From assembly GCA_024229395.1 (NCBI GenBank), contig JAAESM010000037.1, forward strand, positions 1 to 64,000: DNA of 64,000 nt, read 5' to 3'. The translations under genes were made by a program, and so were the position numbers. Of this stretch, positions 14,244 through 36,635 are shown one piece after another (position 1 is the stretch's first letter; every line of letters begins with the position of its first letter). This DNA comes from Planctomycetota bacterium. Its GTDB lineage: Bacteria; Planctomycetota; UBA1135. The notes beneath the pieces were generated by a model that was not told the DNA's origin, searched no databases, and saw only the letters and a program-made list of their open reading frames with translations.

Positions 14244-15032
14244 ATGATGTTGAGATTTCTTTGCTGCGCGGCTTTTAGCCTAGCTGCGCTCACCCCCACC
14301 GTTGACGCCCAATTGACGGGTTCGACACTAGATGCCGAATGGCATTACCCATCGTTTGGTGCAGTACTCGAAAGCCACACCGTCGTCGTTTCCGCCGGCG
14401 TCGAGCTGCCGAGCACGGCAATCTTCAACGACAGTAAGTTCGATATCGATATCGGTGATGATTGGATTGAGTTCCGCTTCAACGCCGCGTCGAGCTGGAG
14501 TACGACCACTTTCAACGGTTGGTTGTTCCGCGACGCACTTGGTGTGCTGGGACCCTTCGGAGGGTTCACTGTCGATTCCTGGAGTGCTGGCGTCACCGGG
14601 ACAGGTGGCATTGCCACTAGCTTCAATGACGATGAGCTATGGGCAAACTTCGCCGGAATGACAGTCGCTGGAGCTGGTGACTGGATTCGCCTGAAGGTTG
14701 CGCCTGGCGGCCCGGTGCTGAGCATTTCGGGTTTGGTCGCTGGTCAAACGGCTATGATCACCGTCGACAACACCACGCCGAACGGGTCGGTAGGCCTGGC
14801 TTACTCCATGTCCGGCGCAGGTCCCACTACGGTGTTCACCGGTAGCTGCGGCTTCCTGGCAGTGGACCTGAGTGCTCCGATCCGGGTCATCGGCACCTTT
14901 GGCGCGATCGGCACCACCATGAGCCTGAACATGAGTATCCCGCTTGCTGCAAGTGGCCGTTCCGTTTGGGTTCAAGGCTTGGATGTCGGCAGCTGCACCC
15001 TCACAAACGGTCTTGCACTGACCGTCCTGTAA
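14244..15032 (+). CDS. Secreted protein with shared C-terminal module
   Basis: Signal peptide MMLRFLCCAAFSLAALTPTVDAQ. C-terminus LSISGLVAGQTAMITVDNTTPNGSVGLAYSMSGAGP...VWVQGLDVGSCTLTNGLALTVL. Confidence 0.85.
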   Translation: MMLRFLCCAAFSLAALTPTVDAQLTGSTLDAEWHYPSFGAVLESHTVVVSAGVELPSTAIFNDSKFDIDIGDDWIEFRFNAASSWSTTTFNGWLFRDALGVLGPFGGFTVDSWSAGVTGTGGIATSFNDDELWANFAGMTVAGAGDWIRLKVAPGGPVLSISGLVAGQTAMITVDNTTPNGSVGLAYSMSGAGPTTVFTGSCGFLAVDLSAPIRVIGTFGAIGTTMSLNMSIPLAASGRSVWVQGLDVGSCTLTNGLALTVL

Positions 15033-15036
15033 ATGC

Positions 15037-15075
15037 AAAAAAAAAGCAGCCTTCCTCAATCAAGAGGAAGGCTGC
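15037..15075 (-). terminator. Rho-independent terminator for the minus-strand gene 15093-16127
   Basis: GCAGCCTTCCTC-AATCAA-GAGGAAGGCTGC (15046-15075). On the minus strand it is followed by T9 (A-run 15037-15045). Confidence 0.92.
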
Positions 15076-15092
15076 TCGAGCAAGCTAAAGAC

Positions 15093-16127
15093 TTACAGTA
15101 CGAGCTCTGCCAAGGAGTTGGTCAGAGTACTGGTCGAGAGGTCTGCAGCCTGGGTGTAAACGGTGAGGCCAGATGCGCGTCCTGGGACACCAAGGCTCAA
15201 TGCAGCAACACCTGCACCGTCAGCGGTGAGGACTGGCAACTGAGTGATAGGTACACTCATATCGACAGGGCCGAATGGAGTCATGGTAGGACCTGCACCG
15301 GTCAGCGAGTAACCGATCAAGACGCCGCCGCCAGCAGATGCGCCAGAAACGGTCAAGGTTGCCGTACTACCACCAGCGAGGCCGGCAATAGCGTAGGAAG
15401 GACCACTTGGGCCATCGCCCAGATCCCAGTTGTCACACATGGCGTTGTAACCACAGATGCCAACGTCAGTGCCCAAAGTGCCTGCGAAAGCAGCGATGAT
15501 GCCGGAGCTCTCGTAGTGGTATTCGTAAACACCATCGTTGAACTCATCGATGTCGACGTTCATGGTGTCGCCAGCATTCGAGATCGAGAAGCGAACGTGA
15601 CCACCGGTCACTGGAGTGATGGCGAAGAAACCACCGTAGGCACCCAAACCACCAGCTGTGGCGTGGTAGAAGCCAATAAAGTCGTAAATGCCGCCGCCGC
15701 CGTTCGATTGAACCTTGGTCCAGAGCATTTCAGCACCTGCACCCATCACAGCGCCTGAATAGGTCAAGCCTGCTGGGCTTACACCAAGATCAAGCTCAGT
15801 GGTTTGATCTTCGTACGGCGCGGAAACACCTGCGCGTTGAATCCAGTAGTTGCCGCTACCCGAAACGAGCATGTCGCCCGAGATCGAGAACGAACCACCC
15901 ATTTGGGTCCAACCTGCACCAAGGCTAGCGCGGTTGAAATCATCGGAATCGATGGAGCCGGCGTTAAAGACGCCTCCGTATGGAGATGTCGACGCGTTAG
16001 CAAAGCTAACTACCGAATTTTGAGTAGCAGTCTGCGGCCCCATGTGAATTGTGGGGTCTAAGTCCTGCTGGTTAACAGCACCCGCCTGCATAGAAGCGAG
16101 CAAAAGAGAAAGGGGGAGATAGATCAT
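15093..16127 (-). CDS. Secreted protein with shared C-terminal module
   Basis: Signal-like N-terminus. C-terminus AGLAGGSTATLTVSGASAGGGVLIGYSLTGAGPTMTPFGPVDMS...LTNSLAELVL. Confidence 0.88.
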   Translation of the reverse strand: MIYLPLSLLLASMQAGAVNQQDLDPTIHMGPQTATQNSVVSFANASTSPYGGVFNAGSIDSDDFNRASLGAGWTQMGGSFSISGDMLVSGSGNYWIQRAGVSAPYEDQTTELDLGVSPAGLTYSGAVMGAGAEMLWTKVQSNGGGGIYDFIGFYHATAGGLGAYGGFFAITPVTGGHVRFSISNAGDTMNVDIDEFNDGVYEYHYESSGIIAAFAGTLGTDVGICGYNAMCDNWDLGDGPSGPSYAIAGLAGGSTATLTVSGASAGGGVLIGYSLTGAGPTMTPFGPVDMSVPITQLPVLTADGAGVAALSLGVPGRASGLTVYTQAADLSTSTLTNSLAELVL

Positions 16128-16499
16128 GTATTCACCCTAGCGCAACATTTTGCTACGAAATGAAAAAAAAGCAAAAACCTTTTCCAATTGGGGCGCAACT
16201 ATGCTACCAGCTAGGAATGTGTATTTCCTGTCCTAGTCCTACGGTCAGGGCTCAGGGTGCTAGGCCAAGCGAATACTTGATGGGAAAAATATGAGAAGGC
16301 AGATTGGAATGCGGGATGTTGAGGAGTTGGGGCTGTGCTTTTTTTGCTGATTTTTACGACGAAATGCGCTTCTAGGGCCATCTCATTGCAAAATCGTAGC
16401 GTTTCCAAGATTTTCGGGATGTCACCGGGGATTTCCCCAGGGAATTCTGTATGCTCGCAACAGGCCAAATGGCCCAATCGAATCCCTTTCGCTAGAAAC

Positions 16500-17459
16500 A
16501 TGAAAACACTCATCTCTCTCACCATCGCCGGCGCCCTGTTTGCCAGCACCGCTTCCGCCCAGAACGTGGATACCTTTGATAATGGCGCCAACCCGAACGG
16601 TTGGTGGTGGAATGGCTTCGTGCCAATCATGGAACCTGTCGGTGGCAATCCTGGTTGGTGGTACCGCGATAACTTCATCAATGATTTCATTCCTGCCTTG
16701 CGTACTGGCAGTGCAACTGGCCTGTGGGCTGGCGACTACCGCGCCAACGGTGTACACACCATCGCATTTGATGCACAAACCATTACTGGCCCTTCGGCAA
16801 CCCAGCCAATGACCATCGTCTTGAAGGACACCAAAGGCACGCCGAGCGACCCTAACGATGATGACTACGCTTTCTACGTAGACAGCTCCGTTGTGATGCC
16901 ACAAGCTGGTGCCGGTTGGAGCCACTACGAGTTCGATATCCCTAGCCAGTCCACCACCCTGCCTGCAGGTTGGGCTGCCGCAAGTGGCGGATGGTTCACC
17001 CCAGGCTTCACCGCTGGCTACACCTGGGACATGCTGATCCAGAACGTGGATCAGGTCGAGATCTGGATGAACGACCCAACGGCATTCGGCATGTGGTTGG
17101 TATGGGACTGCGGCGTGGACAACATCGAGATCAACAACGCTCCACTCACCCCTGAGTTGGTCTACACCGGCCTCGTCGGTGGTGGTACCACGACCCTCAC
17201 CGTCTCGAACGCAACCGCTGGCGGCAATGTCATTGTGGGCTACTCGCTGGCAGGTGCTGGTCCAACCAACACCCCATACGGCATGGTTGACATGAGCAAC
17301 CCAATCACCGTGTTGCCAACCTTGACTGCAGACGCAGGCGGCGTCGCTAGCTTCAGCAGCGCGATCCCAACTCGCGGAACCGGCTTCACCCTCTACTCGC
17401 AGGGTGTTGACCTTGGCTCCGGCGACCTGACCAACTCGGTCGCAGAGGTCATTCTCTAA
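16500..17459 (+). CDS. Secreted carbohydrate-binding-like protein with shared C-terminal module
   Basis: Signal peptide MKTLISLTIAGALFASTASAQ; N-terminal beta-sandwich-like region; C-terminus GLVGGGTTTLTVSNATAGGNVIVGYSLAGAGPTNTPYG...LTNSVAEVIL. Confidence 0.88.
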   Translation: MKTLISLTIAGALFASTASAQNVDTFDNGANPNGWWWNGFVPIMEPVGGNPGWWYRDNFINDFIPALRTGSATGLWAGDYRANGVHTIAFDAQTITGPSATQPMTIVLKDTKGTPSDPNDDDYAFYVDSSVVMPQAGAGWSHYEFDIPSQSTTLPAGWAAASGGWFTPGFTAGYTWDMLIQNVDQVEIWMNDPTAFGMWLVWDCGVDNIEINNAPLTPELVYTGLVGGGTTTLTVSNATAGGNVIVGYSLAGAGPTNTPYGMVDMSNPITVLPTLTADAGGVASFSSAIPTRGTGFTLYSQGVDLGSGDLTNSVAEVIL

Positions 17460-17481
17460 GACTTAGGGTACTCAAAAAATC

Positions 17482-17517
17482 GAGCGGCCTCCCATCTGGG
17501 AGGCCGCTCTTTTTTTG
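17482..17517 (+). terminator. Rho-independent terminator
   Basis: GAGCGGCCTCCCA-TC-TGGGAGGCCGCTC followed by a T-tract. Confidence 0.95.
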
Positions 17518-17529
17518 CACTGGGAGCAC

Positions 17530-19299
17530 TCACTTCACCGACGTCAACCAGGCCTTACGGATCCGATTCTGCTTTTCAGTGGCGTCTTCACGCACCTTCA
17601 ACGAAGCAGTCACGCTGGTATTCGCCGTCAAGGTCACATCAAGTTCACGCTCCACACCATCTTCTTCTAGAGTCAAGGTGACCACCTCACCTGGTTGGTG
17701 CTTCTTGAGGAAACTCTTGGCATTGGTGAACTCTTCACCATTCACCGCCACAAGGATCTCGCCAGCGACCGGTTCCTTGGATGGCACCATGATCCGTGCA
17801 CGTCGGCCAGAGATGCGATTGCCACGAATCGCGAACGGGAAGGAGCAAGGAGTGACGTCTTCACTGTACTCAATACCCGCATAGGCGAAGTATTCGGCCA
17901 ATGGCGGATCAACAGTGCCATAGACATGGCGCGCGAAGAACTCCGAGAAGTCATAGTTGCTCAGTGCGGTGCATGCACGCTCGACATCTCCTTCTGCAAA
18001 GCCGACATTCTTCTCGGCGAACCAGCGGTTGAAGAAACGCATGACGTCGTTCAGTGACTTGCTGTTGTCGGTCTCATGACGAATCTTCAAGTCGATCAGG
18101 GCGCCAAGCATCTCGCCCTTGGCGTAGTAGTCGACGCGCGGCTCGGTCTCACTGGAGCTACGGTGCCAAACATTACGACTTGCCCAGAACACCGAGTGCT
18201 CCAAGCGGCGCATCTTGCTCTGCTCACGCGAAATGAAGCGTGCCATCAAGTTCAGGAACTCTTCTTCCGTGAGGATTCCGGTGCGTACTAGGGTCAGGTC
18301 GCCGAAGTACGACGTCCATCCCTCGGAGACCCACAGGTTGCCGGTGTAGTTCTCATGCTCGTATTCAAAAGGTCCAAGCACATCCGGGCGGATTCGCTTG
18401 ACGTTCCAAGTATGGAAAAACTCATGCGAAGTGACGGAGGCGCCTGCTTCTGGATTTTGCCGCTGACTAGCTGCACGTAAACCGATCGATGTGGAGTTCA
18501 AATGCTCCAATCCCCCGCCACCTGGCAACGTGAACAGGAATACATAGTTCGGGAATGGATAACTTCCGAACAGCTCGCCTTGATTGATTACGATCAGCCT
18601 GACCAGCTCGACGAAGGCCTCGATGTCGAAATCATAGACTTGACTGTTGGTGAAGAACACACAACGGAAAGGAGTGCCGTTAACCTCAAAGCCACGTTCT
18701 TCAAAGAGTCCAAGAATGGTCGGGGCGTCGGCGAAGGTGTCATAGTCGCGCGCATGAAAGACCATCGGATCTTCGGTGGTCAACAAGCCGTTGGCGACTT
18801 GCCATTGCGCTGGCAGTGCGTAAGTGGCCGTCACGGGAACCAACTTGGAGCCTTCCACATAAAGATAAGTATCGGTACCACCGATCCGTAGCCCCGTCAC
18901 TTCGGCATCTGGATTCGCTGAGCGGCCACGTCCGCGCGAACTCGGCAAGCGGTAAGAAATCCTCACCGTGGAATGACCTTCGGTAGCGATGCTCCAAGTC
19001 TGGTGATCCATCTGCAACACTTCCAAAACCGCACCGTCAGCATCTGTGGCGCGCAAGTCCTGGACACGCTTACCGAACTGCCCAATGTAGTAGGTGCCAG
19101 GCATCCAGTTCGGCATGGCCACATGTAAGCGTGGGCGTTGCAGGTTCTGCACATCGATGTCGATCTCAAAACTTTTCAAGTCCTCGGAGACCGTCGTGGT
19201 GTAGGCGATCTCAAGTGGCGTCATGTCATCGCGATTGGTTTGCGCGAAGGCCGACGTGGTTGCCAAGAGAACCAAGAGGATGGGTAGTAGCTGTTTCAT
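17530..19299 (-). CDS. M61 family metallopeptidase (glycyl aminopeptidase-like) with C-terminal PDZ-like domain
   Basis: SVTSHEFFHTWNVKRIRP (HEFFH), WVSEGWTSYFGDL. C-terminal GEILVAVNGEEFTNAKSFLKKHQPGEVVTLTL. Start MKQLLPILLVLLATTSAFAQ. Confidence 0.92.
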   Translation of the reverse strand: MKQLLPILLVLLATTSAFAQTNRDDMTPLEIAYTTTVSEDLKSFEIDIDVQNLQRPRLHVAMPNWMPGTYYIGQFGKRVQDLRATDADGAVLEVLQMDHQTWSIATEGHSTVRISYRLPSSRGRGRSANPDAEVTGLRIGGTDTYLYVEGSKLVPVTATYALPAQWQVANGLLTTEDPMVFHARDYDTFADAPTILGLFEERGFEVNGTPFRCVFFTNSQVYDFDIEAFVELVRLIVINQGELFGSYPFPNYVFLFTLPGGGGLEHLNSTSIGLRAASQRQNPEAGASVTSHEFFHTWNVKRIRPDVLGPFEYEHENYTGNLWVSEGWTSYFGDLTLVRTGILTEEEFLNLMARFISREQSKMRRLEHSVFWASRNVWHRSSSETEPRVDYYAKGEMLGALIDLKIRHETDNSKSLNDVMRFFNRWFAEKNVGFAEGDVERACTALSNYDFSEFFARHVYGTVDPPLAEYFAYAGIEYSEDVTPCSFPFAIRGNRISGRRARIMVPSKEPVAGEILVAVNGEEFTNAKSFLKKHQPGEVVTLTLEEDGVERELDVTLTANTSVTASLKVREDATEKQNRIRKAWLTSVK

Positions 19300-19385
19300 G
19301 TAAGGCGTGTGGCAGGAGAAGGTGAACGGCTGCCATCCTACCCCGGTCTGCCAGGAAAGCAGGTACGTGATATGGTTCATTCACC

Positions 19386-20186
19386 ATGCATCGTCTCTTG
19401 CTTCCCCTCGCTCTCACCGTGGTCTTTAGCGCCAACCTCCAGGCGCAATCCGCCCCAGGCATCATCCATACGGTGACCAACCCTGCCAACGGTCACACCT
19501 ACCACTTGCTCGACCAATCCAATTGGACTGATGCGGAAACAGAAGCCATCGCCCTTGGTGGTCACTTGGTGACCGTCAACGATTTGGCGGAGAACGATTT
19601 CCTGATTGCTGAGTTTTCGTTTTTTGGCGCTATCACACGCCACTTGTGGACTGGCTACAACGATGAGCTGGTGGAAGGCACTTGGGTTTGGGCCGACGGC
19701 GACCCATCCGCATACACCTATTGGAACCCTGGTGAACCAAACAACTCCTTCGCAAACGATCCAATCCATGGCGAAGACTATGCTGCCATGTATCCGAGCG
19801 GTCCTTGGGTAGACCTCAACGATGCCAGCACTTTGACCTGGTTCCCAGTCTTGAATGGCGTGGTCGAGATTGGCTCGCCATTGCTTTCAATCAGCGGCCT
19901 TGTCGGCGGTGGCATTGCCACCATCAATGTCAGCAATGCAACCGCTGGTGGAGCCGTGTTACTGGGTTACTCACTCAGCGGTGCTGGCCCAACCATGACT
20001 CCCTATGGCCCTGTCGACATGAGTCCACCGATTTCGCTGCTGCCTTCCTTGACCGCCGACCCAAGCGGCCTGGCCAGCATGTCGACCGGCGTTCCTGGTC
20101 GCGCGACTGGCTTCACGCTTTACATGCAGGGCGTTGACTTGGCGTCTGGCTTGTTGACGAGCTCGCTGGCCGAGACGGTTCTTTGA
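19386..20186 (+). CDS. Secreted C-type lectin domain protein with shared C-terminal module
   Basis: HTYHLLDQSNWTDAETEAIALGGHLVTVNDLAENDFL...HLWTGYND...WNPGEPNNS; C-terminus GLVGGGIATINVSNATAGGAVLLGYSLSGAGPTMTPYGPVDMS. Confidence 0.92.
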   Translation: MHRLLLPLALTVVFSANLQAQSAPGIIHTVTNPANGHTYHLLDQSNWTDAETEAIALGGHLVTVNDLAENDFLIAEFSFFGAITRHLWTGYNDELVEGTWVWADGDPSAYTYWNPGEPNNSFANDPIHGEDYAAMYPSGPWVDLNDASTLTWFPVLNGVVEIGSPLLSISGLVGGGIATINVSNATAGGAVLLGYSLSGAGPTMTPYGPVDMSPPISLLPSLTADPSGLASMSTGVPGRATGFTLYMQGVDLASGLLTSSLAETVL

Positions 20187-21835
20187 ACCTGCAGACCGTT
20201 GTGTTTCTTGGCGCAGCCTTGTGTTGCGCTGCCCCAGCACCTTGCCAGCAATCCCCCGCCGAGCAGGAGTCGGCACATGAGATTCAGTTCGTTCCGAATG
20301 GCCTGCATGGTTACATCGGCTATCGTGCTACGCGCCCACCCGAGCAATCAGAGTTCGGCGCCGGCATGGGTTTCTACTCTGCGGTGTGGCCTTTGATTGA
20401 CCAACCGCTTGCCAACTTCCAGATTGGATTGGCGGGCGCATGGGTCATTCCCGACAACTCAGACAATAAGGACCAAGCACTTGCTCCCGTCGGAACCTTG
20501 GCGCGCACTTGGCCTGAACGTGGACCGACTTGGAGTAGTGTCTTCCAAACCGTCGAGGGCGGGCTTGGATATTGGCGCGGCAACCGGTTTCGCTACGGCC
20601 CACCGAAGTTCAGCATGAACGCCACCCCACAATGCTACGACTATGAGGTGGGATCCCCCGGTTGGTCTTTTTTCTACGACACCGAAGCCTTGCCCGACGA
20701 TCGCCTGGGGATAGCTCAGTTGAGCAACCGCCTACTGATTCCACCTGACGCCCTGCCCTTCGAAGGCAATCCGCGCGGCAAATTTCTCGGCTACACCTAT
20801 ATGGCACTGCCATTCACCGCGCCAACCACAGGCGACCCACCGACTGGCGATCAAGCTTGGACCTGTTTCCTGAGCACAGCCAATTTCAAAGGCCCAATCG
20901 CCTACTACATTCCTGAGACCTGGAGCAAGATCGGCAAGATCTTCGACATGCCCTTCCTGCATGGGCGCGGATTGGATGCGCGACCTGGCTTGATGGGCGG
21001 TGGCGCCATGGAGATCAACACCGTGCCGAGTTTCGTCGGCCGTGATTCCAAGGGCACGCGTTACTCGAAGATCCCAAAGCTGAACTTTGCAGTAGACCAG
21101 CAAGGGCAAGCGGTGTTGGTGCAAGATGTCACTTATTACTCCAAGGCTGCCCTCTACGATTCCTTCAAGGCATGGCGCGACGGCGGCCCGGCATGCTCGG
21201 GAGAGTTTCAGGAGTCCGGTTCGTGGCGCTCTACCCTGACGACGAACACTCCCCGATTCGATCAAGCCGGCAAGTCCATCGTTGGCGTCGACAAGGTCTT
21301 CAACACCAAGATTTTCGGAGATACGCAATGGGGTTTGGAATGGCTCGATAGTGCAGTCAGCCCACCAGGGCGGTTTCCTCAATACTTCAAGCATGTCGGT
21401 GAAGAGCGCGTTGCGATCTCAGCGGCCGACGTCCCTGAAGAAACCGGCTTGCTGCAAAAGAACTTCCCGTTGGCAAAGCGCGGTTCCCCATTCACATCGC
21501 CTGGTAAGGGCGCATGGACACAACCGGGTCCTACAAAAGGTCCGTTTACTGTGATGCTTGGCGATGGTTCGCTGGTCACCTACTCGTGGTACCGCTTTGT
21601 CGATCAACCCTCCTTCCAGCAGTACTCGTGGAGTGAGGCCAAAAAGGAGCGTCTGCAGACCTTGGTGGAGAAAGTCCACCGCACTTGGCCAATCGACCGC
21701 GACTACATGAAGCCGCCAAGTAGCGGTGAGTTGGTCAAGCTTGATCCGGCTTTGTTCGTGACGCCACCGAAGGGATTGGAGATTGGCTACGTACCGATTG
21801 TCACGCGCCAACAAGATGCCTCCGAGAATCGCTAG
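20183..21835 (+). CDS. Conserved-looking hypothetical protein
   Basis: 550 aa ORF from TTG overlapping the previous stop (TTGA). Signal-like N-terminus. No family recognised. Confidence 0.7.
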   Translation: MNLQTVVFLGAALCCAAPAPCQQSPAEQESAHEIQFVPNGLHGYIGYRATRPPEQSEFGAGMGFYSAVWPLIDQPLANFQIGLAGAWVIPDNSDNKDQALAPVGTLARTWPERGPTWSSVFQTVEGGLGYWRGNRFRYGPPKFSMNATPQCYDYEVGSPGWSFFYDTEALPDDRLGIAQLSNRLLIPPDALPFEGNPRGKFLGYTYMALPFTAPTTGDPPTGDQAWTCFLSTANFKGPIAYYIPETWSKIGKIFDMPFLHGRGLDARPGLMGGGAMEINTVPSFVGRDSKGTRYSKIPKLNFAVDQQGQAVLVQDVTYYSKAALYDSFKAWRDGGPACSGEFQESGSWRSTLTTNTPRFDQAGKSIVGVDKVFNTKIFGDTQWGLEWLDSAVSPPGRFPQYFKHVGEERVAISAADVPEETGLLQKNFPLAKRGSPFTSPGKGAWTQPGPTKGPFTVMLGDGSLVTYSWYRFVDQPSFQQYSWSEAKKERLQTLVEKVHRTWPIDRDYMKPPSSGELVKLDPALFVTPPKGLEIGYVPIVTRQQDASENR

Positions 21836-21886
21836 GTTGCTCTAGCGCGTTCCATTGGCGATGCCCGCTTCGGTAATCTAGCGGGC

Positions 21887-22729
21887 ATGAAAATCGCACT
21901 CGTCCAGCAACATGCCGGTGCCAACAAAGCCAACAACCTGGAACGCGGATTGACTGCTGTACGCGCAGCGGCGCAAGCTGGATCCCAAGTGATCTGTTTT
22001 GCAGAATTGGCCTTCGAGCCTTTCTATCCGCAGCTACCCGCCAATGCACAAGACTGGGCAGAGAATGTGCGCGATCTAGCGGAATCGATTCCTGGCCCCA
22101 CCACTGATTGCTTTCGAGCTTTGGCCGCTGAACTGGACGTGGTGATCGTGCTCAATCTTTACGAACGCGATGGTGAACAAGCCTTCGATACGTCGCCGGT
22201 GATTGATGCCGACGGCAGCCTGCTTGGATGCACGCGCATGGTGCACATCACCGACTACGAGGCCTTCCATGAGAGTGGCTACTACGATCCTGGCGATCGT
22301 GGAGCGCCGGTCTATGAAACGCACTTCGGCAAGATCGCGGTGGCCATCTGCTATGACCGCCATTACCCCGAATACATGCGTGCTTTGACCCTGGCCGGTG
22401 CGGAAGTCATCTTCGTGCCGCAAGCGGGCGCACTCGGCGAATGGCCCGACGGCCTTTACGAAGCGGAGTTGCAAGTCACGGCATTCCAGAACGGAGTGTT
22501 CACCGCACTCTGCAATCGTGTTGGTGAAGAGCAAAAGCTGACTTTCGCCGGTGAGTCCTTCGTATGCTCACCGAGTGGACGTGTGATCGCCCGCGCAGGT
22601 ACAGGAACCGATGAGATTCTGTATGCCGACTTGAATCTGCAGGAAGTCAGCGAATCGCATGCCCAACAACTCTTTCTACGCGACCGACGCCCTGAGCTGT
22701 ACGGCTCATGGCTGAGTGTTGAGTACTAG
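21887..22729 (+). CDS. Carbon-nitrogen hydrolase (N-carbamoylputrescine amidase-like)
   Basis: CFAELAFEPFYP; KIAVAICYDRHYPEYMRALTLAGAEVIFVPQA; nitrilase-superfamily Glu/Lys/Cys arrangement. Confidence 0.9.
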   Translation: MKIALVQQHAGANKANNLERGLTAVRAAAQAGSQVICFAELAFEPFYPQLPANAQDWAENVRDLAESIPGPTTDCFRALAAELDVVIVLNLYERDGEQAFDTSPVIDADGSLLGCTRMVHITDYEAFHESGYYDPGDRGAPVYETHFGKIAVAICYDRHYPEYMRALTLAGAEVIFVPQAGALGEWPDGLYEAELQVTAFQNGVFTALCNRVGEEQKLTFAGESFVCSPSGRVIARAGTGTDEILYADLNLQEVSESHAQQLFLRDRRPELYGSWLSVEY

Positions 22730-22759
22730 CTGGCAGCATCGAACAGAGCAACCGAAGGA

Positions 22760-22975
22760 TTATTCGGTGCCGTTGAGTACGCGACGAATCGAGTTCTCCA
22801 GCCCACCGGTGATCTTGACCAGCCGCCCTTCCTGATCGATCAGGAAAGTCGCTGGGATACCGGTGACGACATATTGCTTCACGATTGGATCATCCCATTT
22901 CAGGCCTTGGTGGATTTGCACCCAGTTCATGCCGTGCTTTTCGGCGAAGGGTTCTTCCGCCTGGAGTAGGGACTT
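22760..22975 (-). pseudogene. Decapitated thioredoxin/TlpA-like C-terminal fragment
   Basis: Minus-strand reading KSLLQAEEPFAEKHGMNWVQIHQGLKWDDPIVKQYVVTGIPATFLIDQEGRLVKITGGLENSIRRVLNGTE*. The CxxC half is absent. Upstream frame runs into gene 22974-23672. Confidence 0.75.
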
Positions 22976-23672
22976 ACTTCGCCATGCCGCCAGAGGATTC
23001 CAGCGTCTCCATCTGTTGTGGAGTCAGCATGGCAGCCAGGCCCTGTCGGTAGTCACTGTCGATTTGCTGCCACGGGGCTCCAGCATCGGCTTTGTTCATC
23101 TCGCCGCTGCGAATAGCTGCCATGACTTCCTGGCGCGCCTGCTCGCGGTTGTCGAGCATTTCACTCATTTGAATCGCTTGCACATCACTGAGGCCAAGTT
23201 CTCCGGTCCAGAAATTCACCTGGTTGTCGAGCCGGGCCATGCGCTTCTCTTCCACGATACGCTCTCGCGCCAAGCGCTCCTCCTCTTCCCTTTGGTCAAT
23301 CACTCCGGAGATGGCGCGATCCAAACGATTGCCGGAAAGCGATTCGGGCGCATCGGCAGAACCAAGCATCAACTCATCAAGGCGCGCTTGCAATTGATTG
23401 AACTCCGCGCGGCTAGGTCCATCGAAGGCCTGGCGCTGAAGGCCAGTGCTTGGCTGCTGAAGGCTGAGTGCGTCAAGCGCCACGGCCTGATCCTGGGTTA
23501 GTAGCTCAAGGTCGGCAATCCGGCTGTGCAGGGCTGCGGAATCCGAGGATCCTCCCGAAGCATCCACTGATGGAGTTGGTTCGCTGTTCAGGAACACGAC
23601 CAACATGGCGCTGGCTGCGCCTGAGACCAAGCCAACGATTACGGGGGGGAAAAATCCGGACGAAGATGACAT
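22974..23672 (-). CDS. Membrane-anchored coiled-coil hypothetical protein
   Basis: N-terminal TM (FPPVIVGLVSGAASAMLVVFL), then charged helical region. Confidence 0.75.
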   Translation of the reverse strand: MSSSSGFFPPVIVGLVSGAASAMLVVFLNSEPTPSVDASGGSSDSAALHSRIADLELLTQDQAVALDALSLQQPSTGLQRQAFDGPSRAEFNQLQARLDELMLGSADAPESLSGNRLDRAISGVIDQREEEERLARERIVEEKRMARLDNQVNFWTGELGLSDVQAIQMSEMLDNREQARQEVMAAIRSGEMNKADAGAPWQQIDSDYRQGLAAMLTPQQMETLESSGGMAK

Positions 23673-23694
23673 CCATTGATTCTACCCCAAATAT

Positions 23695-26415
23695 TTGAGA
23701 ATGTGTGGTAGCTTGGGGATTACCTTTGCCATGCTAAGCAACCTCCTACTTTTAGCTCTCGCCCCCCTCTCCGCAGCCCCTCAGCAGGGCCCGGTGGTAA
23801 GCGAATTCTTGGCATCCAATCAAGGCGGTTTGGAGGACGAAGATGGCGACAGCCCTGACTGGATCGAAATCTACAATCCACGGCCTGTTGGGGTCGACCT
23901 TGGCGGCAGCTACCTGAGCGATGATTCGGGCAATCTGACCCGCTGGGCTTTCCCCTCACCCACCGTCATCGCAGCTGGCTCAACCATGATCGTTTTTGCA
24001 TCTGGCAAAGATCGTGCGGTCAGCGGACAGGAACTGCACACCAACTTCTCGCTCTCTTCGGGTGGAGAGTACTTGGGTTTTATCGAGTCCGACGGCATCA
24101 CCATTCGTAATCAATATGCACCGGAGTATCCCACCCAATACTCGAACGTTTCCTTTGGTTTGCGTTTTGATCCTGGGGTGACCGCGGAGCAGAGTTACTT
24201 CCCGGTTCCAACTCCCAATGCAACCAACGGCAGTGGCGGCCCATTCATTGAGAGCGCAACGCACAGTCCTGAATCGCCGAGCAATCACGAGGACATCATC
24301 GTCACGGCTCGCATCCTCAGCGCAGGTTCTGCGGTCACCAACGCCACCCTGACGACACGGGTCATGTATGCGGCAGAGACCACCGTCATCATGAATGACA
24401 GTGGCATCGCTCCTGACCTGCAAGCTGGCGACGACTTCTGGACCGGAAAGATCTCGGCAGCTTCTTCGTCGCCTGGCGAGATGGTGCGCTGGAACATCTC
24501 GGCGATCGACAACGGCAACCACTTGAGTGTCTCGCCGGCCCACTTGACATCGGAATCGGCCGAATACTTCGGCACCGTCATCAACAACCCTGCCGTCGAC
24601 AGTGACCTGGCCACCATTCATTGGTTTGTACAGAACCCGGCGATGGCCAACACGACGACCGGCACGCGCTGTTCCGTGTGGCTCAACGGCGAGTTCTACG
24701 ACAACCAGTATTGCCGCATTCGTGGCGGCAGCACCGCCAGCTACCAGAAGAAGAGCTACAAGATTGACTTCAACCCCGGTGAAAAGTTCCGCATGATTCC
24801 TGGTGTGGATCGCATGGAAGAGATCAACCTGAACTCGACCTGGTCGGACAAGGCGTACATTCGACAGCAACTCTGCTGGGAGACCTACGCGAACGTCGGC
24901 GCCACGGCTTCGCTGGCCGAAATGGTGCACCTGATGCAGAATGGTTCCTTCAAGGGCTTATACAACTTCATCGAACAAGTCGATGATGAGTATCTGGATC
25001 GCCGCGGCTTCGATGATGATGGCGCGCTGTACAAGATGTACAACTCGATGACCTCCTCGATCAACGGCGTGTCCAAGAAGACACGTACTTGGGAAGGCAA
25101 TCAGGATCTGCTTGACCTGGTCAATGGCATACAGCAGCAAGGCAATAGCCTTGAGCGCTTCATGTTCGACAATATCGACCTGCCGGCGGTCATCAGTTAT
25201 TTGGTCGGCACAGCACTGATCTGCGACAACGATCACATCGACAAGAACTACTACGTCTATCGCGATTCCGACGGCGACCAGGAATGGATGTTCCTGCCGT
25301 GGGATAAGGACCTGACTTTAGGGCGCAACTACACGCTTACCGGTGGTGTGCTGAACGATTCGATGTGGGCGAATATCGATCCACAATGTCACCCGAAGTA
25401 TGGCGATCGCAACCATAAGAAGATCGACGGCTATTGGAACCGCTTGATCGATGCCTGTTATCGCGAACCGCGCGTGCTGGAGATGTATGTGCGCCGCCTG
25501 TGGACCGTAATGGAACAGGAGCTACAGGCTCCTGGCACGCCAGCTGGGCAGCTGAAGTTCGAGCAACGCGTTGAAGAGTTGCACTTACTGTTGGCAGATG
25601 AAGTGGCGCAAGACGTACAGGTCTGGGGCACGCCGAGTTGGGGTTCCTACATGAACTTCCAGTCCGCCTTGAACCAACTCACGCAGGATTATCTGGCACC
25701 ACGCCGCGCGCACCTATTCCAGACGCATCTGCAGTCTGGCGTCATGCCAGGCCCACCAGCCTCCACGCCAGCCATGGTTTTGGGCAGCATGGAACCCGAT
25801 CCAGCTTCCGGCGATGACGACGAGGAATGGCTTCAGCTTCTCAACCCCAGCAATGACGCGGTCGACATGAGTGGCTGGACTTTGACCGGCGGTATTGAGT
25901 TCACCTTCGCTCCTGGCACCGTTGTGCCGGCCAACGACGAGGTCTACCTGTCCGCCAAGATCAAGAGCTTTCGCAACCGCAGCACTTCGCCGAAAGGCAA
26001 TGAAGGCAACTTCGTGGTCGGTCCGCATGATGGCAACCTGCGCGTTGGCGAAGAGTTGTTCCTGTGGAATGCCGATGGCGCCTTGATTACCTCGAACTCC
26101 GACGCCTTCACGCTCTACGCTAGCGACTTCCTCGCTGGTACCAGCGCGGTGGTCAGCGTTGCGGGAGCCACCCCGAACTCACCGGTGTTTATCGGTTGGA
26201 GCTCGGCTGGAGGCGGCCCGACCAACACTGCATGGGGTGTTGCGGACTTGAGTCAGCCAATCAGGGTATTGCCAAGCATGACGGCATCGGCAGCAGGAAC
26301 GGCCTCGACGTCGGCGCCGCTTCCAGGCACCCTGTCGGGAGTTCAGATCTGGTTGCAGGCTTTGGATCCAGCGTCGGGCGAGATTTCCAACGGCGAGACA
26401 CGCGTGATTCAGTAG
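23695..26415 (+). CDS. Secreted CotH-kinase-family protein with lamin-tail domains and shared C-terminal module
   Basis: VSEFLASNQGGLEDEDGDSPDWIEIYNP (LTD); CRIRGGSTASYQKKSYKIDFN...; GLYNFIEQVDDEYLDRRG; DNDHIDKNYYVYRD; second LTD EEWLQLLNPSNDAVDMSGWTLTGG. Start uncertain. Confidence 0.92.
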   Translation: MRMCGSLGITFAMLSNLLLLALAPLSAAPQQGPVVSEFLASNQGGLEDEDGDSPDWIEIYNPRPVGVDLGGSYLSDDSGNLTRWAFPSPTVIAAGSTMIVFASGKDRAVSGQELHTNFSLSSGGEYLGFIESDGITIRNQYAPEYPTQYSNVSFGLRFDPGVTAEQSYFPVPTPNATNGSGGPFIESATHSPESPSNHEDIIVTARILSAGSAVTNATLTTRVMYAAETTVIMNDSGIAPDLQAGDDFWTGKISAASSSPGEMVRWNISAIDNGNHLSVSPAHLTSESAEYFGTVINNPAVDSDLATIHWFVQNPAMANTTTGTRCSVWLNGEFYDNQYCRIRGGSTASYQKKSYKIDFNPGEKFRMIPGVDRMEEINLNSTWSDKAYIRQQLCWETYANVGATASLAEMVHLMQNGSFKGLYNFIEQVDDEYLDRRGFDDDGALYKMYNSMTSSINGVSKKTRTWEGNQDLLDLVNGIQQQGNSLERFMFDNIDLPAVISYLVGTALICDNDHIDKNYYVYRDSDGDQEWMFLPWDKDLTLGRNYTLTGGVLNDSMWANIDPQCHPKYGDRNHKKIDGYWNRLIDACYREPRVLEMYVRRLWTVMEQELQAPGTPAGQLKFEQRVEELHLLLADEVAQDVQVWGTPSWGSYMNFQSALNQLTQDYLAPRRAHLFQTHLQSGVMPGPPASTPAMVLGSMEPDPASGDDDEEWLQLLNPSNDAVDMSGWTLTGGIEFTFAPGTVVPANDEVYLSAKIKSFRNRSTSPKGNEGNFVVGPHDGNLRVGEELFLWNADGALITSNSDAFTLYASDFLAGTSAVVSVAGATPNSPVFIGWSSAGGGPTNTAWGVADLSQPIRVLPSMTASAAGTASTSAPLPGTLSGVQIWLQALDPASGEISNGETRVIQ

Positions 26416-34381: not shown

Positions 34382-34903
34382 CTACAGAATGATTCTGAGC
34401 GCCATGGCAGCGGAACTGTATTCCGGCAGCTGACCTGGCTGGTTGGCAATCGCGGCAAAGTAGTACGTGCGACCAACAAGTCCTGCTGGAATGCCCGCCG
34501 GTATCGTCATGCTTGCGCTTGCATGGCCCGCTGCATCAAGGGTGCCGTGCATGCCACTAGTGCCCGGCACTGGATAGTTCCCGAAGAAGGTATCCAACAC
34601 CAAACTGTCTCGAGTCAGTGGAATGGCTACGCCGTAAGTCACAGGCCCCATGCCAGTTTGCGAGATCAAAATCTTGTACTGATCAAGCCCAGCAGCAGGG
34701 AAAGTCAGATCGTAATTAATGGTGCCGCCGGCCGATGCTGAAACCGCACCTGTGCTTGGGATCAGGTAAGGGTTGAAGGCGTAGGTGTAGACCGAACCAA
34801 TCGAGGCTTGGCCGCCGCACTTGCGCGGGACTAGCAATGGGCAGGCGCCAGCGGGGGTGTTATAGGCTCGGCCTGAGATGGAATTATGAAGTTTCGATGT
34901 CAC
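34382..34903 (-). CDS. Hypothetical protein resembling a stand-alone variant C-terminal module
   Basis: 173 aa, beta-rich. TYGVAIPLTRDSLVLDTFFGNYPVPGTSGMHGTLDAAGHASASMTIPAGIP..., no clear signal peptide. Confidence 0.55.
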   Translation of the reverse strand: MTSKLHNSISGRAYNTPAGACPLLVPRKCGGQASIGSVYTYAFNPYLIPSTGAVSASAGGTINYDLTFPAAGLDQYKILISQTGMGPVTYGVAIPLTRDSLVLDTFFGNYPVPGTSGMHGTLDAAGHASASMTIPAGIPAGLVGRTYYFAAIANQPGQLPEYSSAAMALRIIL

Positions 34904-34958
34904 TATTGTCGCACATTCCAGACCTCGAAACCCCTAACCCACTTATGAATAAACACTT

Positions 34959-35045: not shown

Positions 35046-36635
35046 CTAAAGCACCTGCCGATTGGATGCCAGACAAGCCTGGATATCCACTGCCTGGATG
35101 GAGGTCCAGCAATGTTGTGACCGTGCGTTGAAGCTCAGGGAAACCATTCCGCTCGGATCCGCTTGGACCACGGCACCGATGGTCGGATTGAGCACACCCA
35201 AGATTAAGCCATTGCAACAGCCGCCGATGTTCCGGAAGATGCCATGGCTTCCATAGATGATGGCGACATTCCCTCCTGGAGTGGCATTGGAGACTGTCAA
35301 CTGAACCGGACCTGGGCAGGTACCGAACTTGGCTAGATTTGGATAGGTGTTGCGGTCGTTGACAAAGACGTCGTAGGCGAAGTTGGTGTCTCCCAAAACC
35401 AAATGGGCCGAAAAGTCATCGAAGGCAACAACGCTGCCGTCTGAAGAAATCGCAGCGTGGAAACTTTGAAAACTGCCCTGAGTGGTAGCCTTGGAGTAGG
35501 CCATGTTCGTCGTCAATCCAAGAAGCCTGTCGTGAAGGAAAACGTCCGAAGAAGAATTTAAGTCTTCTGTGATGAGGTCGGTGGCATAGCTGTCGAAAGC
35601 TACGAACAGGCCATCGTCGGAGATAGTGCCACGCCCACTCCAGCCACCTCCAGCCACTCCCTGACTATTCACACTCACACGCGTGGTCATCGACGTCGCT
35701 CGGTCGTGGGTGTAAACATCCGCCATGCCGTTGCGATCGCCGGGCACAAGCGTCGTGGAGTCATTGGTGAAGACCACGATGGTGCCATCAGCTGAAAGCC
35801 CTGGATCCCCAGAATATCCGTCAGCTTGCGCGCCACCGGACTTTAGACTTACGCGATTGGTTTGGCCGGTTGCAGGCTCATGGACGAAAATATCATAATT
35901 ACCATTGGTGTCGTTCGCCACGAGGTTGGAGGCGTCACTGGCAAAGCCGATGGTGGTTCCGTCAGCGGAGATGACGGGTTGCCCCGAACTGTGGTTTGCT
36001 TCTGTACCAGAGGAATCGACACTGACTCGTGAGGTGTTGCCGGTCTGTCGGTCATGCAGGAAAACATCATTGATTCCATTGGTGTCGCCAGAAACTAAAT
36101 TGGAGGAGTTGCTCGCGAAAACGACATAACGGCCATCACCGGATATCGCACATTCCGAAGAGGAACTATTTCCTTGGGCGCCACTGGATGAAACACTCAC
36201 ACGGGTAGTGATCCCGCTCAATCGATCATGTGCGAAAATATCGGCTAGGCCATTGGTGTCATTCGCCACTAGGTTTGAGGCATAACTGTGGAAGACAATG
36301 ATTTGGCCATCTGCTGACATATCTGGTTTGCGTGAATCACCGTTTGCTTCTGCACCGGTGGAATCGAGGCTGACGCGAACCGGTGTGCCAGTATTTCGAT
36401 TCACGAAGAATACGTCGGTGTAGCCATTCGTGTCTCCACTGATGAGGTTGGACGCATCGCTCTCAAAAACAACAAGTTGTCCATTGGCAGACAGAGCAGG
36501 GAAAGTGCTGCTCCCATTTCCGCTGTGACCAGAGGATCTTTCACTCACACGGTCTACGCCTTGAGCGGAAAGGTGACCTTCAAGACCCCCAAGCACAGCA
36601 AGGAGATAGAGAGATGCCGACAAGAAGTTATTCAT
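35046..36635 (-). CDS. Secreted TolB/PD40-like beta-propeller protein
   Basis: Seven repeats of the form [SA]xxL(V/I)xxDtNgxxD(V/I)(F/Y)xxxR..., signal-like MNNFLSASLYLLAVLGGLEGHLSAQ. Confidence 0.88.
   Translation of the reverse strand: MNNFLSASLYLLAVLGGLEGHLSAQGVDRVSERSSGHSGNGSSTFPALSANGQLVVFESDASNLISGDTNGYTDVFFVNRNTGTPVRVSLDSTGAEANGDSRKPDMSADGQIIVFHSYASNLVANDTNGLADIFAHDRLSGITTRVSVSSSGAQGNSSSSECAISGDGRYVVFASNSSNLVSGDTNGINDVFLHDRQTGNTSRVSVDSSGTEANHSSGQPVISADGTTIGFASDASNLVANDTNGNYDIFVHEPATGQTNRVSLKSGGAQADGYSGDPGLSADGTIVVFTNDSTTLVPGDRNGMADVYTHDRATSMTTRVSVNSQGVAGGGWSGRGTISDDGLFVAFDSYATDLITEDLNSSSDVFLHDRLLGLTTNMAYSKATTQGSFQSFHAAISSDGSVVAFDDFSAHLVLGDTNFAYDVFVNDRNTYPNLAKFGTCPGPVQLTVSNATPGGNVAIIYGSHGIFRNIGGCCNGLILGVLNPTIGAVVQADPSGMVSLSFNARSQHCWTSIQAVDIQACLASNRQVL

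Follow-up and report, generated by a model that had tools for sequence, protein, structure and literature searches.

The type A C-terminal domains (CTDs) of the type IX secretion system (T9SS) are immunoglobulin (Ig)-like domains of ~100 aa with low sequence identity, and many such substrates are served by one PorV shuttle (PMC12618676). PEP-CTERM signals consist of a motif, a transmembrane helix and a basic tail (PMC1569441). GlyGly-CTERM, associated with rhombosortase, is a short C-terminal sorting signal common to unrelated proteins of one genome (PMC3237569), and MYXO-CTERM, associated with myxosortase, is likewise such a signal (PMC11980579). We analysed a 64,000-nucleotide stretch of DNA (the window; positions 1 to 64,000 of contig JAAESM010000037.1, assembly GCA_024229395.1) from a Planctomycetota bacterium of the UBA1135 lineage, in which the original prediction, made from the sequence alone, had noted five proteins with differing N-terminal parts that all end in a homologous module. 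This module represents a family that is new to Pfam and NCBIfam, and modelling indicates an independently folded beta-sandwich suffix of ~100 residues on Sec-exported proteins. We put at about even the chance that it serves as a post-export sorting or attachment label, read by a shared partner in the envelope and similar in logic to the T9SS.

All five modules are present at the predicted positions, and each closes exactly at a stop codon. To avoid circularity, 27 modules, all taken from three further species (G001, G002 and G005), were used to train an independent hidden Markov model (HMM). Searched against the open reading frames (ORFs) of the window, it detected all five reported copies (E = 5e-28 to 3e-43) and, beyond these, only a weak sixth, while the top match in 20 residue-shuffled sets of these ORFs had E = 0.18. 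Copies 1 to 3 form the C-termini of proteins whose host part has no Pfam match: copy 1, a Cys-containing variant (14709-15032, + strand; HMM match 14709-15029, E = 5e-28), belongs to an ORF at ~14244-15032 (+) with the signal-peptide-like sequence MMLRFLCCAAFSLAALTPTVDA; copy 2 (15093-15404, - strand; match 15096-15404, E = 3e-43) to the ORF at 15093-16127 (-); and copy 3 (17148-17459, + strand; match 17148-17456, E = 9e-41) to the ORF at ~16500-17459 (+). The C-type lectin and CotH hosts of the original prediction were confirmed; its jelly-roll-like host part is putative. Copy 4 (19875-20186, + strand; match 19875-20183, E = 2e-42) lies in a C-type lectin protein at 19386-20186 (+; PF00059, 1.7e-8), and copy 5 (26104-26415, + strand; match 26104-26412, E = 1e-33) closes an LTD-CotH-LTD protein at 23695-26415 (+), in which a CotH domain (PF08757, 6e-42) is accompanied by two lamin-tail stretches (PF00932).

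As a single query, one window copy retrieved the other four at genome-wide E-values of 1e-10 to 2e-12 and gave hits at 31 genomic sites (E <= 1e-3), and a profile of 26 copies gave 54 matches at E <= 0.01. Because some of these 54 are fragments or halves of one split gene, ~50 genes is a fair count. The idea that the module is an already catalogued domain, which the original prediction had named as a possible refutation, was rejected after scans of 26 module copies and the five full host proteins: no Pfam-A or NCBIfam model matched any of the 26 copies above its curated cut-off. A sequence search of the PDB yielded only matches of E = 0.13 and 0.15, and no published account of the domain was located in the open-access literature. 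The structure prediction that had been proposed was run with AlphaFold2, which modelled the module as an all-beta domain of eight strands (pLDDT 96.7, pTM 0.84). Its top Foldseek neighbours in the PDB were neocarzinostatin-type apoproteins, ester-bonded adhesin repeats, FN3 and antibody domains, with probabilities up to 1.00 and TM-scores of ~0.5-0.6. None of these had E <= 0.001, so they place the module in the Ig-like fold class without pointing to any closer relative. The model is thus an antiparallel Ig-like beta-sandwich with structural neighbours of low significance.

Position and hosts were assessed in a non-redundant set of 122 ORFs drawn from the window, its own genome and relatives. 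The expectation that the module would always be C-terminal held for 119 of them, in which it ends no more than 12 aa before the stop codon. In the other three the module directly follows the signal peptide and is lacking at the C-terminus: L076 (G000:C50:177486), a Kelch protein of the window's own genome, and L140 and L145 from distant families. The module was never internal and never occurred twice in one protein. According to a crude home-made rule, signal peptides are present in 94 of the 122 hosts versus 57 of 179 neighbouring control ORFs (Fisher p = 8e-15), and most rule-negative hosts appeared by eye to have narrowly missed the rule, or to have a wrong start or a truncated frame. None of the 122 hosts was clearly cytoplasmic. 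The refuting observations named in the original prediction, whether frequent internal or N-terminal placement, cytoplasmic hosts or a known Pfam domain, were not made. Host families comprise reprolysin, matrixin M10, M14, CotH with lamin tails, lectin, cupredoxin, LamG-like, GSDH, beta-helix, Porphyromonas-type PAD and an ethylbenzene-dehydrogenase/cytochrome protein, along with subtilisin-like and M28-like proteins called from sequence reading alone.

These features invite comparison with type A CTDs (TIGR04183), which like the module are C-terminal Ig-like beta-sandwiches on diverse proteins with Sec signals (PMC12618676). The module hosts share the combination of a Sec signal peptide and a C-terminal Ig-like sandwich of ~100 aa, the fold resting here on prediction and low-significance Foldseek matches. 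If the module were a true T9SS CTD served by a Planctomycetota T9SS, its size class, Ig-like fold and Sec-exported hosts would match those of type A CTDs (PMC12618676), and the host families indeed overlap. We consider this very improbable: neither the 26 module copies nor the five full hosts matched TIGR04183, TIGR04131 or any other NCBIfam T9SS tag model at E <= 1, and SprA_N (PF14349) was found in 0 of 26 relatives, although the control genomes gave no match either. The module further differs from type A CTDs in occurring in Planctomycetota rather than Bacteroidota, and in its three N-terminal copies.

The proposed HMM search of relatives showed a wide distribution. All 26 family genomes carry the module, in 19-80 copies per genome, and at least one copy is present in 138 of 151 genomes of the class. 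It was found in 53 of the 294 genomes of a phylum sample, for which at most 16 candidates were scored per genome, making the per-genome counts lower bounds. A search for named genomes, which used the tight alignment A2 and not the broad alignment A1, returned uncultured, mostly marine Planctomycetota metagenome-assembled genomes (MAGs), UBA1135 among them. The module tags a sizeable share of the proteins exported by these marine Planctomycetota, a widespread and mostly uncultured group, and the combination of the tag, ~50 hosts and a class-wide presence profile provides a starting point in the search for the machinery by which such proteins are moved or anchored. One MAG labelled Gemmatimonadetes (L120, JALXCG010000029.1; G424) contains 12 module copies; it is mislabelled or contaminated, or the module is genuinely present in another phylum. 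A phage or plasmid origin was rejected, as the collections of both contained no module match.

The module also resembles PEP-CTERM, which is common in other Planctomycetota, in being a lineage-amplified C-terminal homology on unrelated exported proteins. Unlike PEP-CTERM, it is a folded domain: alignment A1 closes in SNxxxxxVL/VQ and contains neither the motif nor a transmembrane helix or basic tail. The lack of a transmembrane helix and basic cluster equally separates it from GlyGly-CTERM and MYXO-CTERM, which are tripartite membrane tails. The analogies with T9SS and PEP-CTERM drawn in the original prediction apply to the logic of the tag and not to membership of either family. Exosortase (PF09721) was rejected as a partner of the module, as there was no association across the 294 genomes (22 of 53 module genomes versus 93 of 241 others); four of seven sampled module-rich family genomes lack it. 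No PEP-CTERM (PF07589) or dockerin (PF00404) match was found in the window's genome, which encodes one exosortase (G000:C50:445350-446108) yet no detectable PEP-CTERM protein.

Across the phylum sample, none of the 35 genomes with at least five modules has at least five PEP-CTERM or at least five dockerin matches, compared with 83 of the remaining 259; since the genomes are related, the Fisher value of 5e-6 is indicative only. Dockerin type I, an attachment domain, is like the module C-terminal on diverse secreted proteins, and dockerin-like repeats take the module's place on CotH proteins of other Planctomycetota. It consists of calcium-binding EF-hand-like helices, whereas the module is predicted to be an all-beta sandwich, and the module has no PF00404 match. 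CotH protein tails were sorted by eye. In module genomes, L170, L178, L179 and L183 terminate either in the module itself or in a diverged version of it, and L184 and L187, whose sequences are cut off, appear to carry divergent forms; as an exception, L176 of one module genome ends without it. In other Planctomycetota, the tails are dockerin-like repeats (L161, L164, L167, L169, L171 and L182) or hydrophobic (L181 and L185), and other CotH proteins have no tail. Distribution and CotH comparison both agree with the module being an alternative C-terminal tag.

The replacement of dockerin-like tails on CotH proteins is also what would be seen if the module were an attachment or adhesion domain, an Ig-like fold that binds a common extracellular ligand such as a matrix polysaccharide, an S-layer or a scaffold protein and has no role in crossing the outer membrane. 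The lectin, LamG-like and beta-helix hosts are in keeping with this, the three N-terminal copies favour it somewhat, and the Foldseek neighbours include neocarzinostatin-type apoproteins that bind small ligands, albeit at low significance. For binding modules, so marked a preference for the C-terminus and the lack of tandem copies would be unusual, and no ligand-binding signature was found in the module. We regard this explanation as possible but less likely than not. It fits almost as well as sorting, and the two would be the same in practice if the partner were a surface receptor.

Modules can also be exchanged between hosts within a genome. Hosts of different species were taken as orthologues when their host parts were reciprocal best hits. 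In enzyme hosts, for example reprolysins, CotH proteins and a cupredoxin, the module has diverged in step with its host, and copy 5 was inherited with its host, sharing 78.6% identity with the module of the G005 orthologue. In several other hosts, the module is nearer to that of an unrelated host in its own genome than to that of the orthologue. In G001, the modules of L103 and L102 are 93% identical while their hosts are 25% identical, and the orthologue's module is only 64% identical. The module of L006 in the window's genome is 90% identical to window copy 2 versus 83% to the orthologue's module, and copy 2 shares with a gene on contig C4 a 283-bp block of 85.5% identity (blastn), with host parts that are ~32% identical. 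Synonymous sites agree, with pS values of 0.32 (L103/L102) and 0.42 (L006/copy 2) versus 0.76 and 0.66 for the orthologous modules. In 30-nt bins, nucleotide identity rises from ~0.3-0.4 to ~0.9 at the module start and is ~0.3 just past the stop codon. As the host parts cannot be aligned, such sharp borders are expected from gene conversion and domain replacement alike. Some module copies have been rewritten from others in the same genome by one of these two processes. Homogenisation that stops at the borders of the domain is an unusual way of keeping one suffix matched across unrelated proteins, and one that can be tested directly. In measurable module pairs dN is far below dS (0.047 vs 0.42; 0.089 vs 0.62), so the module is under constraint.

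Demonstrated exchange between hosts, a generic fold and conserved positions that are mainly Gly, Pro and Gln would all be expected of a passive cap that aids folding, stability or protease protection, requires no partner and spread by domain shuffling. This explanation would leave the near-exclusive C-terminal placement, the class-wide expansion and the alternation with other C-terminal tags unaccounted for, and we consider it improbable.

We prefer to interpret the module as a label because it is a folded and constrained suffix that is C-terminal and single-copy, replaces other tags and is alike within a genome. In such a pathway, the signal peptide would first carry the protein over the inner membrane, and one or a few shared partners in the envelope or outer membrane would then recognise the folded suffix and move the protein outward and/or retain it at the cell surface or within the matrix. 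The machine would differ from the T9SS even though its logic would be that of a type A CTD. Passage across the outer membrane could use one of the several secretins present; secretins were found in 41 of 41 relatives tested, which makes a secretin-based route available but does not implicate it. A more specific proposal is in our view rather doubtful: this one class of Planctomycetota would have an undescribed system for outer-membrane secretion or surface attachment that came to resemble the T9SS by convergence and uses the module as its address tag, with copies kept matched to their shared receptor via gene conversion.

Several points weigh against the label interpretation. No partner, receptor or processing enzyme turned up, with no unbiased genome-wide partner profiling made, and the three N-terminal copies speak against a strictly C-terminal signal. 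Several signal-peptide proteins of the window have no module, which must therefore be dispensable for export itself. Many modules share only 25-35% identity, and conservation of mostly Gly, Pro and Gln could be purely structural. Both the distribution of the module and its exclusivity with respect to other tags track clades, so that the Fisher p-values overstate independence, and recombination alone can produce homogenisation. The sorting-tag role advanced in the original prediction is consequently favoured by placement, hosts and distribution, while the missing partner and the N-terminal copies count against it.

The original list of five overlooked a divergent, Cys-containing sixth copy (35046-35324, - strand; HMM match 35052-35324, E = 0.003). 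It is C-terminal in a signal-peptide protein at ~35046-36635 (-) with TolB-like repeats recognised by eye. An iterative search seeded with this Cys variant arrived at the main module family, and AlphaFold2 predicted for it an all-beta domain like that of the main family (pLDDT 89.3). A tentative seventh copy may lie at the C-terminal end of an open frame of 183 aa (34382-34933, - strand), which has no clear start and adjoins the sixth-copy gene; only weak matches were obtained there (E = 0.0014), and the independent HMM was not significant.

Host-less or broken module fragments occur elsewhere in the window's genome (G000:C4:80182-80466, C18:33066-33200, C81:107-208 and C27:77433-77552), one without its middle, and may have been left behind by domain exchange or decay, or be artefacts of the assembly. 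Within one lectin-module gene, the contig ends G000:C73:40580-40761 and C85:2-183 share a 182-bp overlap of 99.5% identity, and these contigs are probably adjacent in the genome. Module genes with differing host parts also cluster in threes or fours, as at 14244-20186 of the window, G001:C110:70810-74135 and G006:C1:10266-13385, an arrangement that may favour exchange between copies.

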